From: Sulfuricurvum sp.
GTDB lineage: Bacteria > Campylobacterota > Campylobacteria > Campylobacterales > Sulfurimonadaceae
Assembly: GCF_028688295.1 (NCBI RefSeq)
Contig: NZ_JAQTYM010000005.1
Span: 1-64,000, forward strand
Reading direction: 5' to 3'
Length of the DNA: 64,000 nucleotides
The notes beneath the pieces are model-generated. The model was not told the origin of the DNA. It saw only the letters and a program-made list of their open reading frames with translations, and made no database searches. This document shows positions 35,591 through 64,000 of the stretch, piece after piece. Both the position numbers and the translations under genes were made by a program. Every line of letters starts with the position of its first letter. Position 1 is the stretch's first letter.

Positions 35591-35746
35591 ATGAAAAAAA
35601 CTATTGCAAACACCAATAAATTCTTCTCTACCGCTAAAAAGCGGGAAACTATGATCGTTAATTCGGTTTATACCTCTGCTAAAGCGGAAGGTTCTAAAAC
35701 AACCAAAAAAGAATTGAAAGAACACTACAAACTTATCCATTCCTAA
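35591..35746 (+). CDS. small basic protein (51 aa)
   Basis: ATG with AAAAAGG upstream; MKKTIANTNKFFSTAKKRETMIVNSVYTSAKAEGSKTTKKELKEHYKLIHS. Confidence 0.5.
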   Translation: MKKTIANTNKFFSTAKKRETMIVNSVYTSAKAEGSKTTKKELKEHYKLIHS

Positions 35747-36527
35747 TCTCTTCTTCGATTTTATCGATCAATAATTGCTGTAGCGGTTCATAGTTACAGT
35801 GATACCCTTCATGTACTTTCTGAATATAGTTATCACCGTTTTTGAGATTTAGCCCGATCATTGGCAATCCATTTTTCGCCAAAATAATATCTCCCAAAAG
35901 TCGGCTGATTCGTCCGTTTCCTTCCCTAAACGGATGAATAAACAAAAATTCACTCAACAATCGGGATAAATCTGACGTAATCAACTCAATATCTTCATAC
36001 TGTTTTTTAGAAACCTCTTTAATCAACGTATTAAGCTGTGGAATCCCTTGTAAAAATTCTAATCTCCATGTCCATGCTTCGAGATTATCCCCTTTGCTCA
36101 TTTTAACCGTTCTAATCTCACCCGCAAATGGGTAGATTGATTCAAAAGCCCTCTTATGCCATTTTTTGACGGTGTTAAAACCAAATGATCTCGAAATGTC
36201 AAAATTGACAACCAAATCGCTGTAAAGTTCGAGGAGTTTTAAATCCTCATGTTTTTGAATCCAATCGCTATCAGTGGATTTTAGGTAGTTGATACATACA
36301 CCGCTAGAGGTCATTATTTTTTGAATGTCGTTACTTGCCCAATGACTCCATGGATTCGAAATGATCTGATCAGGGCTTAATTCGTCACATTGTAGATTCG
36401 TTTTATCGAGAATATTTTTAGGCGGCTTTGTTGATTTAAAGTATCGTTTATCCGTTTCATACCAATATTGGATAGGTGTATTATGGGAAGTTTTAAAAAC
36501 GTAAAGAAGGTATTTTGATTTGATCAT
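35733..36527 (-). CDS. Fic-family protein
   Basis: Fic motif HPFREGNGRISRLL; IYPFAGEIRTV. Confidence 0.93.
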   Translation of the reverse strand: MIKSKYLLYVFKTSHNTPIQYWYETDKRYFKSTKPPKNILDKTNLQCDELSPDQIISNPWSHWASNDIQKIMTSSGVCINYLKSTDSDWIQKHEDLKLLELYSDLVVNFDISRSFGFNTVKKWHKRAFESIYPFAGEIRTVKMSKGDNLEAWTWRLEFLQGIPQLNTLIKEVSKKQYEDIELITSDLSRLLSEFLFIHPFREGNGRISRLLGDIILAKNGLPMIGLNLKNGDNYIQKVHEGYHCNYEPLQQLLIDKIEEEIRNG

Positions 36528-36567: not shown

Positions 36568-37914
36568 TTATACCGCGTTTATACTCTCAATCACACGCTC
36601 CACATCGATCTCGCCTCTCATCGTCTCCATAAATACCTCAATCGTTTTTTTCTTATACCGTTCAAAGACTTCATCATCGAAGAGACCATGAACGAATGTC
36701 CCTTTGATATGACCTTTTTCATACGATAGTGGATATTTTTCACTCACTCCGTGATGGATTTCAAACCCGTTTATCGCGCGGCCAAAGATCTCATATTTCC
36801 CTTTTTTGAGCACTTTATCCCGCTGAAATACGATCACATCATCGATAAATCCGAGGGCTTCTTCACGACTCGGTTCTGAGGTTTCGACACACCCCTCATC
36901 GATGATGGTTTCAAACATCATCTGATACCCGCCGCAAATTCCCAGAATCTCTTTTGTCCTCATTTGGAGGGTATCGAAGAGTCCCACTTGCTTGAGCCAT
37001 CGCAAATCCTCGATCACCCGCTTGCTTCCGGGGAGGATAACGAGATCGAAACTTTCTAACGCGATGTTAGTGGTGATAAACTCGACTGCGATTGTCTCAT
37101 CGGCGATAAGAGGTTCGAAATCGTTATAGTTGCTCATCGTGGGATAATTGATGATCCCGATTTTTTGTGAGGGGTTAGGTTTGTTTTGGACGAAATTTTT
37201 GAGGCTTTGGGAGTCTTCGAATCCGAGGTTGAGCGGGGTATAGGGGAGGACTCCGAGGACGGGAATACCGAAGCGCTCTTCGATAATACGCACCCCATCA
37301 TCAAATAAGCTTCGATCTCCGCGAAATTTGTTGACGATCACCCCGATGACATTTTCGCGCAGCTTTTCGGGGAGGAGATTATAGACCCCCCAGATCGAGG
37401 CGAAAACCCCTCCGCGTTCGATGTCGGCGACGAGGATAATCTTCGTACTATATGTTTCGGCAATGTAGATATTGGAGAGGTCTTTCTCCATCAGGTTCAG
37501 CTCGACGGGACTCCCCGCCCCCTCACAGATAACGCACTCATAACGTTCGCTCAGATACTCAAAGCACTCATCCACAGCAGGTTTCAGCAGATCCAGATCA
37601 CGGTAATACTCCCGCACCTCTTTATCTTCCACAACGTGCCCCTTTACGATCAGCGAGGCGCTATTCCCGTGCCCCGATTTAAGCAACACGGGGTTGAGAT
37701 GATAACTCGTCGGGATACTTAACACTTCGGCTTGAAAATACTGGGCGATGGCGATTTCAGAGCCGTCGTCGCAGACATGGGAGTTGTTGGAGACGTTTTG
37801 GGCTTTGAACACCCCGACGCTGACCCCCCGCTCTTGGAGGAGTTTTCCGATCACAAACGTAAGGGTCGATTTCCCCGCATCGGAAGAGGTGCCGAAAATA
37901 GAGAGGGAGTTCAT
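36568..37914 (-). CDS. cobQ: cobyric acid synthase (amidotransferase)
   Basis: GTSSDAGKSTLTFVIGKLL, KAQNVSNNSHV, VILPGSKRVIEDL, GICGGYQMM. Confidence 0.95.
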   Translation of the reverse strand: MNSLSIFGTSSDAGKSTLTFVIGKLLQERGVSVGVFKAQNVSNNSHVCDDGSEIAIAQYFQAEVLSIPTSYHLNPVLLKSGHGNSASLIVKGHVVEDKEVREYYRDLDLLKPAVDECFEYLSERYECVICEGAGSPVELNLMEKDLSNIYIAETYSTKIILVADIERGGVFASIWGVYNLLPEKLRENVIGVIVNKFRGDRSLFDDGVRIIEERFGIPVLGVLPYTPLNLGFEDSQSLKNFVQNKPNPSQKIGIINYPTMSNYNDFEPLIADETIAVEFITTNIALESFDLVILPGSKRVIEDLRWLKQVGLFDTLQMRTKEILGICGGYQMMFETIIDEGCVETSEPSREEALGFIDDVIVFQRDKVLKKGKYEIFGRAINGFEIHHGVSEKYPLSYEKGHIKGTFVHGLFDDEVFERYKKKTIEVFMETMRGEIDVERVIESINAV

Positions 37915-38475
37915 CTATTTTTTCCTAAACGCGCGAAGCAACGCAACGATAATCAAGCATTCCAGCGCGAACAATACAAAATGCAAATCATAGACTTGTT
38001 CTGCGGCTTTAGTGATACCGTAATGCTCTATGAGTTTGTAAAATCCGTACGAGAGAGCCAACCCTGCCAGAGAGCCTTGCTGTTTGGCGACATCGATCCA
38101 CCCCATCACCCGTGCATGGCGGGCGAAATGGGTTTCGGCTCGTACCAAATACCCTCCGAAGATAAAAGAGAACTGATAGGCGACGTAAATGACCAAAGCA
38201 CTCATGATATGGGTGGAAAACAGCAGATAATATCCCACCATAAGAAGCATGATAAGCTCCGTTGCCAATGTAAATCGGAAAAACGTGCGGAGATTCATCA
38301 GTCGGTGATATACATATGCCATCCCCATCATCCCCAGTGCAAGCAGTATCCCTCCAACTGAAAATGTCGAGGGGCTAAGGGTTGCATAGATCGTAAAGAC
38401 CGATCCCCCCACCATACCGGTGAAGAGTGCGTTGAAAAATTTGTAGCGCAGATAAGGGCGAAATAATAGTTTCAT
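37915..38475 (-). CDS. hypothetical membrane protein between cobQ and btuB-like gene
   Basis: 186-aa ORF with ~5 hydrophobic segments; abuts both neighbours. Confidence 0.7.
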   Translation of the reverse strand: MKLLFRPYLRYKFFNALFTGMVGGSVFTIYATLSPSTFSVGGILLALGMMGMAYVYHRLMNLRTFFRFTLATELIMLLMVGYYLLFSTHIMSALVIYVAYQFSFIFGGYLVRAETHFARHARVMGWIDVAKQQGSLAGLALSYGFYKLIEHYGITKAAEQVYDLHFVLFALECLIIVALLRAFRKK

Positions 38476-40283
38476 TAAAATCGTGCGTTTAACCCGACAT
38501 AGAAACTGCGTCCGGCAGTTCCGTATCCGTCAACTTCTTGATAAAGTTTATCGCTCAAATTGTCTCCCTTAAGATAAAAACTGAGACTCTCGGTCGCATC
38601 ATAATTCACGACCGCTCCCCATAGGGTATAACGTCCTGTTTGTTTTGTTTGGGCAAGATCATCATAGCGTGTTCCGATGTAGTGTGCATTGAGTCCTAAC
38701 TGCCATTTGGAAAATCCGTAATAATCCAGTGCACTTCGGAAGGTATCTTTTGCGCGTCGTTGAATCTCTTGATTGTTTTGATTTTTAGCCCAAAGATGGT
38801 TATATCCGAGATCCAACACTATATTGCTTGCGATCGTGTTTTTATACGAGAGCTCATACCCCTCAAAACGTGATTTCCCCTCAACTTGTGTGTATCCCCC
38901 GATCCACCACATAACTGGATCAGAAACATACCCGATGAGATTATCGACGAGATTATTATAGTAGGTGAAACTTAGATGTTTATACTGCATCGTCGCATCA
39001 AAACTTTTGGTCGTTTCCGCATTGAGCGCAGTAATATCGGGATGGATATTCATAATCTCATACAGTGAGGGCACACGATACGCGGTTCCGTAATTCGTGC
39101 TAAAAGAGACTTCGTCCGTAAAATTGTATTTAGCACCGATCTTACCGGTTGTTTTGTCCCTAAACATATCATACGTATCATGGCGAATAGATTCGGTTAC
39201 GATTAGGTTATCCAAACGGTTCGTATTCGTTAGAAATACCCCTTTGGAATCGAGCTCTTTTGAGCTGATCGTATCTTTGGAATAGAGAGCATTTCCCCCT
39301 ATGACCAAAAAGGAGTTTGGCGCATAGTGATAGCTCGCTTGAAGTGTCCCCTCTTTATGTCTCCCCTTAAACGCTGTGGTATAACCGAGGGGGTCTTTTT
39401 TATCGAAACTGGAGATATTGTATGTCGCGCTGAGTGAATCTTCTAGGTTAAAACGATGGACGTAACCGATACTTCCCAAACGATTGATCTGATGGATCTC
39501 ATTGGCTTCACTGTTAGGTTGAGCGTAGGCATCGTACTGAGTAAAAGCATCGATAAAATGGAGTTGGGCATTGAGGGTATCGGATGGGGTCACATCGTAG
39601 CTGAGTTTAGCGTTTAGTGTCTCATTTTTATAACCGTCCGCTTCATAGTCGTCTGGACTTTTCCCTTTGGGTGTACTCGAAGAGAAGCCGTTGGTTCGGA
39701 TCTGATTCGCCCCGAAATAGTACGATAACGCATTGACTCTTTGGGAGATGTTAGCCCCTAGTTTGGTGGTTGCATAACTGCCGTATTCAGCTGTCGCACC
39801 TATGCGTAGTTTTTCGGTTGCTTTTTTAGTGATGATATTGATCACACCGGCGACGGCATTCGCTCCCCAAACACCGCTTTGCGCCCCTTTTATGATTTCA
39901 ATACGTTCAATATCATTGACCATAAGTTGCTCTAACTGTGCTTGCCCTTTGGGGGTGGTCGGATCGTTGTAGCGGATACCGTCTACTAACACAACAGCGT
40001 TTTCAGAGCTGAATCCCCGAAGAAAAAAGGAACTTTGACTCCCTACCCCTCCGTTTTGTGCTATCGGAATATTGCTGAGGGTTTTGAGTGCATCAATAAC
40101 CGAGGTTATATGTCTCTCCTCGAGTTCATCAGAGGTTATAACATCGACGTTAGCGGTGACATCTTTGAGCGATTGTTCAGTTTTAGAAGCGGAGATAACG
40201 ATAGGTTCGAGGGTGAGCGTATTAGCCTCTAATGAGGCAACGAGTGTCGCGGATGCGACGAGTGATAAGGTCTGTTTAAACAT
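38475..40283 (-). CDS. btuB: BtuB-like TonB-dependent receptor
   Basis: TonB-box-like region, plug domain, barrel ending YVGLNARF; adjacent to cobQ. Confidence 0.88.
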   Translation of the reverse strand: MFKQTLSLVASATLVASLEANTLTLEPIVISASKTEQSLKDVTANVDVITSDELEERHITSVIDALKTLSNIPIAQNGGVGSQSSFFLRGFSSENAVVLVDGIRYNDPTTPKGQAQLEQLMVNDIERIEIIKGAQSGVWGANAVAGVINIITKKATEKLRIGATAEYGSYATTKLGANISQRVNALSYYFGANQIRTNGFSSSTPKGKSPDDYEADGYKNETLNAKLSYDVTPSDTLNAQLHFIDAFTQYDAYAQPNSEANEIHQINRLGSIGYVHRFNLEDSLSATYNISSFDKKDPLGYTTAFKGRHKEGTLQASYHYAPNSFLVIGGNALYSKDTISSKELDSKGVFLTNTNRLDNLIVTESIRHDTYDMFRDKTTGKIGAKYNFTDEVSFSTNYGTAYRVPSLYEIMNIHPDITALNAETTKSFDATMQYKHLSFTYYNNLVDNLIGYVSDPVMWWIGGYTQVEGKSRFEGYELSYKNTIASNIVLDLGYNHLWAKNQNNQEIQRRAKDTFRSALDYYGFSKWQLGLNAHYIGTRYDDLAQTKQTGRYTLWGAVVNYDATESLSFYLKGDNLSDKLYQEVDGYGTAGRSFYVGLNARF

Positions 40284-40486
40284 GAGTGTCCTTGATTAAT
40301 AATCGTAATAATGAATGAGAGCAGGACACTCTTAGGGGGAGAAACAGCCGAATAGATGTAGATAGGACAAACCGGAGCAACGAGCTCAATACGGGTAATA
40401 TTTTGGAGGAGACGTACCTCTGAAGCATACGCTTGGATAGCGACAAGTGAAAAATAATTCTTACCAAACCCGCATGGTGAACGCAT
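40229..40486 (-). CDS. candidate leader ORF (85 codons) upstream of and overlapping btuB
   Basis: TATAAT at 40513-40518 and GGGGAGGA SD at 40492-40499 before ATG; stop inside btuB. Confidence 0.45.
   Translation of the reverse strand: MRSPCGFGKNYFSLVAIQAYASEVRLLQNITRIELVAPVCPIYIYSAVSPPKSVLLSFIITIINQGHSCLNRPYHSSHPRHSLPH
40284..40331 (-). promoter_or_regulatory. SD-sequestering inverted repeat before btuB
   Basis: Minus strand GAGTGTCCT-30 nt-AGGACACTC-ATG; right arm contains the btuB SD. Confidence 0.6.
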
Positions 40487-40542
40487 CACTATCCTCCCCA
40501 AAATTTTTGCGAATTATAGCGAAAAAGAGGAGAGGGACTTTT

Positions 40543-62443: not shown

Positions 62444-62519
62444 GGTCTTATAGCTCAGTTGGTAGAGCACTACCTCGACAAGGTAGTGGTCACAGGTTCG
62501 AGTCCTGTTGGGACCACCA
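62444..62519 (+). tRNA. tRNA-Val (anticodon GAC)
   Basis: 76-nt cloverleaf, CTACC-TCGACAA-GGTAG anticodon arm, encoded CCA. Confidence 0.95.
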
Positions 62520-62615
62520 TTTCTCCTTAATTTTCCTCAAAATTTATTTATTTAATCGTAAACCAATCAACAATCCCGTATAATCCGCGATATTTTCTCA
62601 ACGAGGGACACCCTT

Positions 62616-64000
62616 ATGGATATTATTGCACTTAAGCATGATGATCAAATAATCGATTTACAAACGGCAGAAGCACTTGGAATTACGGGTGAAGAGATCG
62701 TTTACGATAACTCTCCCGATTCTCTCGAAGTTCTTCGCCACTCTTGTGCGCATTTGATGGCAGAAGCGATCAAAGCACTCTACACCGATGCTAAATTTTT
62801 CGTCGGTCCTACTGTCAAAGAGGGTTTTTATTACGATTTCAAAGTAAACGAAACGCTCAATGAAGAAGACTTGAAAACGATCGAAAAAAAGATGCTCGAT
62901 ATTGCCAAAGGCAAAGAGAAGATCACACGATACGAAATCACGAAAGAGGAAGCTCGCGCAAAATTTGCAAATGACCATTTGAAACAAGCGGTTATGGATC
63001 GTATTCCATCGGAAACCGTGACGATCTATAAACAAGGTGAGTTTGAAGATCTTTGTCGAGGGCCTCATTTACCGAGCGTCGGATTGATCCGTTATTTCAA
63101 ACTGACCAAAATTTCGGGTGCGTATCTCGGCGGTGATAGCAAGAACGAGATGCTTACCCGTATTTACGGTATCGCATTTGCCGATAAAGAGTCACTCAAA
63201 GCATACTTGGATCAAATGGCGGAAGCGGAAAAACGAGACCACCGCAAAATCGGTGCCGAGATGAAACTCTTTACGTTCCGTGAAGAGGTCGGGGCGGGAT
63301 TCCCGATTTGGCTCCCTGCGGGGGCACGTATGCGTTCACGTTTGGAGCAATTACTTTTCAAAGCACATCGTAAACGTGGGTATGAGCCGGTGCGAGGTCC
63401 TGAAATGCTCCGTTCTGATTTATGGAAAGTGTCGGGACATTATCAAAACTACGGTGAAAACATGTATTTCACCAACATTGATGAGCTAGAATTCGGGGTT
63501 AAACCGATGAACTGTGTCGGTCACATCAAAGTGTACGAGCATGATTTGCACTCCTACCGTGACCTTCCTCTCAAATATTTTGAATACGGGGTCGTTCATC
63601 GTCATGAGATGACGGGAGCACTTCACGGATTGTTCCGTGTTCGCGAATTTACCCAAGACGATGCTCATATCTTCTGTACGGCCGATCAGATTGAGCAGCA
63701 GATTATCGAAGTGGTTGATTTCGTAGATAAAATCATGAAAACATTTGAATTTAACTACAAAATGATGATCTCGACCAAGCCTGAAAAAGCGGTCGGAGAT
63801 GACGCGGTTTGGGAGATTTCAACCAACGCACTTAAGACGGCGATGGACAAAAATAACCTTGCTTACGAGATCGATGAGGGGGGCGGAGCGTTTTACGGTC
63901 CTAAAATTGATATCAAAATTACCGATGCTATCGGACGTGAATGGCAGTGCGGTACGATCCAACTCGATTTCAACCTTCCGATGCGTTTTGAGCTCGAATA
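62616..64000 (+). CDS. thrS: threonyl-tRNA synthetase, 3' truncated by window
   Basis: [48 protein letters not shown]; open to the window end. Confidence 0.96.

Follow-up and report, generated by a model that had tools for sequence, protein, structure and literature searches.

The btuB leader of Sulfuricurvum encodes a short conserved peptide that is a member of an unnamed family found before B12-related genes of many Campylobacterales. This leader is probably a regulatory nascent peptide, and the modular family to which it belongs would control the cobalamin regulon of the order instead of a riboswitch. In the window, the whole stretch of 64,000 nucleotides that was analysed, the leader ORF, a helix holding the Shine-Dalgarno sequence (SD) of btuB and btuB itself lie together on the minus strand (Table 1).

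Table 1. Features of the btuB leader and the genes downstream of it in the window.
Feature	Position	Strand	Basis or remark
-10 box TATAAT of the leader promoter	40513..40518	-	sequence check
SD of the leader ORF, GGGGAGGA	40492..40499	-	5 nt 5' of ATG 40486
Leader ORF, full: 85 codons and stop	40229..40486	-	55-nt overlap with btuB, different frame
Functional core of the leader: 51 codons, MRSPCGFGKNYFSLVAIQAYASEVRLLQNITRIELVAPVCPIYIYSAVSPP	40334..40486	-	codons 4-51 ungapped in 29/29 relatives
N-module [KR]GFGKxYFSLxAIQAY, common to btuB, metE and cbi leaders	40388..40486	-	profile match E 3.9e-17
Ser-Pro-Pro (SPP) codons, proposed arrest site	40334..40342	-	invariant within the genus
Left arm (anti-SD) of the helix, GAGTGTCCT	40323..40331	-	starts 2 nt past the last Pro codon
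Right arm of the helix, AGGACACTC, holding the btuB SD	40284..40292	-	sequence check, covariation, duplex energy
btuB, TonB-dependent receptor	38475..40283	-	closest NCBIfam TIGR01779, PRK10641 (vitamin B12 receptor), below cut-offs
186-aa membrane protein	37915..38475	-	no Pfam/NCBIfam family; directly 3' of btuB
cobQ, cobyric acid synthase	36568..37914	-	TIGR00313 394.5 bits, above cut-off; downstream of btuB

The leader peptide within the genus

A preliminary description of this DNA had placed a TATAAT box, an SD, an ATG at 40486 and an ORF of 85 codons in the leader, and a sequence check finds each of them in place. Printed upstream sequences show an identical TATAAT a short way 5' of the leader ATG in most relatives; a consensus scan that requires a -35 box did not pick up the promoter, of which only the TATAAT is present. 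The search for relatives took 30 btuB homologues from 41 genomes of the genus, 29 of them with readable upstream DNA. The same ORF precedes btuB in all 29 loci, and a core of 48 codons (codons 4-51) is found without gaps in each. The 85-codon ORF is thus present as it was first read, but the conserved peptide comprises codons 1-51 only and ends with SPP; neither the other 34 codons nor the part that overlaps btuB is conserved as a peptide.

Comparisons of the 29 Sulfuricurvum leaders give 3214, 2438 and 10693 differences at codon positions 1, 2 and 3, respectively. The dN/dS ratio is 0.06-0.09 (about 0.07) in the core versus 0.5-0.8 from SPP to the btuB ATG, and thus selection at the peptide level reaches SPP and then largely ends. 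Twenty leaders have a long form that continues in frame past SPP into btuB, and about a third have a short form with a stop codon 2-3 codons past SPP. Three haplotypes, WICPTHPIHTYST, LVAPVCPIYIYSA and WICPVCPVYTLSA, occur at residues 34-47 (40346-40387 in the window; L001-L030), and they do not simply track relatedness (for example L011 compared with L013).

The leader peptide, in the window as well as in its relatives, has no Pfam or NCBIfam match, DUF2946 included, and DUF2946 and other known peptide families were rejected as an identity for it. It has no run of regulatory codons of the kind found in amino-acid attenuators, and no terminator-like site was found between 40150 and 40700 of the window.

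The helix at the btuB ribosome-binding site

The perfect 9-bp inverted repeat described earlier, with a 30-nt loop and the btuB SD within the right arm, is confirmed in the sequence, and the helix also stands up to a covariation check: its positions are 97.2% paired across 20 relatives and three pairs show double changes, and no slid register of the helix exceeds 53.3% pairing. When the 20 nt past SPP are paired with the SD window, the duplex in the Sulfuricurvum window has an energy of -16.8 kcal/mol versus a mean of -3.4 kcal/mol with swapped left arms, and it is matched by none of 82 left arms swapped in from other sites. The helix of the window exceeds chance.

In the long forms the left arm starts 2-3 nt past the last Pro codon, and the short forms have a different helix in the same place, AACGATTA with TAATCGTT, usually adjoining the SD. 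Helices of unrelated sequence are found at the same place in other genera, such as TTTTATCCTTTT with AAAAGGATAAAA before metE and, in an example before btuB, CATAATCC with GGATTAT.

At 83 non-redundant sites, pairing of the SD window with the 20 nt that follow Pro-Pro gives a mean duplex energy of -6.4 kcal/mol, versus -4.5 kcal/mol with swapped arms. The native arm is better than 95% of the swaps at 22 of the 83 sites, where about 4 would be expected (binomial p 8e-11). On average, pairing is most favourable with the window set at offset 0 from Pro-Pro and has weakened considerably once it is shifted by 10-15 nt. Sequestration of the SD is thus a general feature of the family but not a universal one: a significant anti-SD arm immediately follows Pro-Pro at only about a quarter of the non-redundant sites, and several sites have other hairpins instead or none that is obvious.

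Distribution of the family and its target genes

Profile searches find relatives of the leader throughout Campylobacterales, with the common N-module [KR]GFGKxYF[ST]LxAIxA. Leader sites were defined without regard to the next gene and only then classed by it, with the downstream start codons picked automatically. Among 179 distinct sites the next gene is btuB in 98, an in-frame fusion with btuB in 11, metE in 52 and an operon of cbiM-cbiK-cbiL type in 3, so that btuB (fused or not), metE or cbiM accounts for 164 sites. The other 15 are 10 contig ends, 4 sites before an outer-membrane porin gene and 1 degenerate B12 locus; no unrelated intact target was found among the 179 sites. The identities rest on metE matches above cut-off and CbiK-, CbiL-, CobB- and BtuF-like matches in NCBIfam, and on CbiM (PF01891) and CbiK (PF06180) in Pfam. 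The genome from which the window comes also has a metE leader (L131). A scan of the N-module pattern against 84,980 prokaryote species, from which 80 loci were kept, gave titles that are nearly all genera or families of Campylobacterota, two being labelled only 'bacterium', and no other phylum is named among these loci.

The receptor of the window has TIGR01779 as its best match (6e-89). The receptors associated with the family fall under the BtuB equivalog cut-offs, so a few could carry other ligands. A membrane protein of 160-195 amino acids similar to the one next to btuB in the window, and likewise matched by no Pfam or NCBIfam family, comes directly after BtuB in many relatives (L061-L064, L088, L138, L149, L150) and is a candidate part of B12 uptake. 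Elsewhere in the window, a Fic/DOC family protein is encoded downstream of cobQ on the same strand (35733-36527), and a match to the Rfam antisense RNA HPnc0260 on the minus strand (62444-62632) overlaps a plus-strand tRNA gene.

In several families the BtuB-like receptor is fused in frame to the N-module (L062, L063, L064, L088, L138, L139, L149, L157), which forms its N-terminus and apparently doubles as its signal peptide. The porin-like protein that follows the leader in some Sulfurimonas (L213, L215, L216, L219) has 418 amino acids and is a candidate corrinoid or cobalt porin; btuB comes after it in L213, and genes for an ECF-type transporter are found nearby in L219. In L212 (3012-3350) non-coding DNA with a btuC-like remnant comes after the leader, beside a cbiB-like gene, and from its translations this reads as a decaying B12 locus that has retained its leader.

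The link to cobalamin

The preliminary description had seen no motif of a cobalamin riboswitch in the leader, and this agrees with the searches made here. The leader has no Rfam match at the gathering threshold and only a chance snoRNA match at a permissive E-value, and the cobalamin riboswitch RF00174 was found in 0 of 150 genomes of the order by a search that was positive in 8 of 14 control genomes. A hidden riboswitch was rejected on these grounds together with the codon positions, which show selection at the peptide level. It is very improbable that an undescribed cobalamin-binding RNA overlaps the ORF and that the peptide is incidental. The leader RNA does fold somewhat better than shuffled sequences (z -2.6), as such an RNA might, but third codon positions vary freely while the amino acids stay, and no RNA element common to the btuB, metE and cbi leaders is apparent beyond the coding of the module.

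Since btuB, metE and the cbi operons are textbook targets of cobalamin riboswitches, cobalamin would be the most economical common signal for the leaders. The distribution of metH, which encodes the B12-dependent methionine synthase, points the same way. In a sample of 150 genomes from the phylum, 47 carry the N-module (E at most 1e-5), all of them with metH; this is 47 of 51 metH-positive genomes versus 0 of 99 without full-length metH, and at the genus level 20 of 22 versus 0 of 17, an association that is confounded by phylogeny, with one concordant absence inside a genus (G174 in g20). Genomes with an N-module in the metE leader have metH in 40 of 40 cases, a few of these being only fragments or partial matches. 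The metE leaders that have only the second, C-terminal unit described below (C-unit) are found in 10 genomes with metH and 10 without, the latter from one family. A rule by which an N-module metE leader means metH and a C-unit-only leader means loss of metH was rejected because it held one way only. Presence of the N-module in the whole genome tracks metH much better than the type of metE leader does, and metE leaders without the module in metH-positive genomes suggest that some B12 users leave metE outside N-module control.

The N-module has a basic-hydrophobic-AYAS layout like that of a signal peptide, and together with the fused receptors this raises the question of whether it is an export signal, with the leader reporting the state of export or of the envelope (in the manner of SecM, VemP or CutF) and with btuB as its target because BtuB is an envelope protein. 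CutF is indeed a co-translationally exported sensor (PMC9973294). This explanation is unlikely, as the N-module is also found at 52 sites before metE, whose product is a cytoplasmic enzyme, and its presence tracks metH, and the stretch that should be hydrophobic contains polar or charged residues in several leaders (SLQAITATVN, TLRAITAT).

Spacing between the sensor units and Pro-Pro

Of 153 non-fused leaders tested, 151 have a Pro-Pro preceded by one further residue (such as SPP, HPP or APP). Counted from the YF of the N-module, the first Pro-Pro lies at a median distance of 39 residues in btuB leaders, 41 in metE leaders and 38 in cbiM leaders; most btuB leaders have a distance of 37-39, most metE leaders one of 40-42 and the cbi leaders one of 38. 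The metE leaders are usually tandem, with a second Pro-Pro far downstream in 47 of 52. In 46 of 47 leaders, this C-unit carries a Cys/His motif (usually PCHCN) that precedes the final Pro-Pro by exactly 37 or 34 residues. Such distances are approximately the length of the ribosome exit tunnel, and each unit thus resembles a sensor that arrives at the tunnel exit as Pro-Pro enters the active centre.

Short metE leaders consisting of the C-unit only (for example MLSGPLHCNCIFNSKAKQCLKFGKDLFSRVFYKFYFSLRRSGCHPP, L132) are found in genomes without metH in a Campylobacter-like family (f11: L132-L134, L135, L136, L140). In these genomes the C-unit must respond to a signal that is not B12, for which methionine, SAM or a metal such as Zn can be offered as guesses.

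The features by which arrest peptides can be recognised are found together in these leaders: a conserved uORF peptide under amino-acid selection that ends at Pro-Pro, a conserved distance from sensor to arrest site (mostly 37-42 residues in the N-units) and an anti-SD arm beneath the position of the stalled ribosome, the last in the window and its genus and at about a quarter of all sites. The preliminary description had suggested that btuB is controlled at translation by translation of the leader together with the SD helix. The conserved frame, the covariation of the helix and the lack of a riboswitch support this well, but a better reading exists than simple coupling, in which the helix is melted by a ribosome passing through it. 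Of the outcomes named there as refuting, neither a lack of conservation of the frame or the helix in relatives nor an Rfam aptamer hit was seen. A road-block or plain coupling of translation with no small molecule, where translation of the leader fixes the level of btuB and the helix is open part of the time, would suit the long forms, which overlap btuB and translate through the helix. It is nevertheless very improbable, because it leaves unexplained the conservation of the amino acids, the fixed distance from module to Pro-Pro, the common targets in the B12 regulon and the short forms that stop where the helix starts.

Proposed mechanism

Selection that ends exactly at SPP, a helix that follows 2 nt later and a dispensable tail suggest that translation arrests at SPP in a regulated way and so frees the SD of btuB, as in SecM or CutF. 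From these comparisons we infer that the ribosome stalls, that cobalamin is the signal and is sensed directly by the nascent chain, and which state of the switch is ON and which is OFF. When B12 is scarce, the ribosome would stall at SPP, the N-module (GFGKxYFSLxAIQAY) being at the tunnel exit while the Pro-Pro about 38-41 residues further on is translated. The stalled ribosome would cover the anti-SD arm just downstream, so that the SD is left free and btuB is translated. When there is enough B12, the stall would be relieved or not formed, and the ribosome would either run on (long form) or terminate (short form), after which the helix would close over the SD and turn btuB off. Against the stall, SPP and HPP are, to our knowledge, outside the established RAPP/RGPP arrest motifs, and pauses at plain Pro-Pro are usually relieved by EF-P.

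Tentatively, the nascent peptide itself might bind the cobamide as the N-module exits the ribosome. It would then be a peptide sensor of B12 that has replaced the riboswitch across the order, and the metE leaders, in tandem with a second sensor unit, would be two-input nascent-chain switches. It is also conceivable, if rather doubtful, that a trans-acting B12-responsive factor (a B12-binding protein, a chaperone or a targeting factor) binds the emerging N-module, with the stall and the helix unchanged. The N-module has no obvious corrinoid-binding motif, its fixed distance to Pro-Pro puts it at the tunnel exit within reach of such factors, and it is able to serve as the N-terminus of BtuB itself. 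However, the analysis found no candidate factor, and none is needed in the closest precedents, CruR and CutF, where the nascent chain binds copper (PMC9426467, PMC9973294).

Comparison with known systems

Both precedents are leader peptides of copper-related genes. CruR, a DUF2946 protein, is encoded 5' of the TonB-dependent transporter gene bfrG in Bordetella pertussis, has a CXXC 45 residues before RAPP and acts through Rho-dependent termination (PMC9426467). The B12 leaders share with it a small uORF that comes first in a TonB-transporter operon, a sensor at a fixed distance from a C-terminal Pro-Pro and the control of nutrient uptake by a nascent chain. The Sulfuricurvum leader differs in that it has no DUF2946 match and ends with SPP instead of RAPP. 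CXXC is not conserved in the N-unit alignments, and the C-units have HC or CHC instead. The targets are B12 genes and not copper genes, and the anatomy points to sequestration of the SD and not to Rho termination. CutF, encoded upstream of cutO in Rhodobacter capsulatus, is an exported copper sensor (PMC9973294). It is likewise a nascent peptide with a C-terminal Pro-rich stalling-like motif, and it has a stem-loop that shields the ribosome-binding site and is opened when translation is delayed. Unlike CutF, the present family has no link to copper, and its metE, btuB and cbi leaders share an N-module.

Among amino-acid attenuators, LeuL, TrpL and MetL are translated leader peptides of Campylobacter jejuni (PMC3847290, PMC11955535) and thus come from the same phylum as the B12 leaders, but they carry codons for the regulatory amino acid and give early transcript ends. 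MetL was rejected as a known relative, as it precedes metBA instead of metE and is confined to C. jejuni and its close relatives. RF00174, found at btuB in E. coli and at metE and cbi operons elsewhere, has the targets btuB, metE and cbi genes in common with the leaders and, for btuB, control at translation initiation; it is, however, a folded RNA aptamer, and the conserved element in the leaders of Campylobacterales is a peptide.

In the SecM-secA system the stalled ribosome adjoins a hairpin that hides the downstream SD. SecM and the RAPP-type arrest peptides (PMC10951299, PMC12992588) also resemble the B12 leaders in having Pro at the arrest site, but they monitor protein export, and their arrest motif and regulon are different. 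A B12 leader peptide, or metE and btuB leaders in Campylobacterota, were not found in the open-access literature searched.

Conclusions

Cobalamin riboswitches rank with the most widespread of RNA regulators. Campylobacterales, however, make use of B12 without having them, and the leader family is a candidate answer to how btuB, metE and the cbi genes are controlled in the order. If this is true, it would be, as far as the open-access literature searched goes, the first case of a vitamin regulon under the control of nascent peptides. The leaders are small and modular, with an N-unit, a C-unit and their tandem fusion, which makes sensing, stalling and control of the helix separable in reporters. 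The family may also serve as an annotation marker for B12-regulated genes in Campylobacterota, and it would offer an independent natural comparison for the swap of an RNA sensor for a peptide sensor in evolution.
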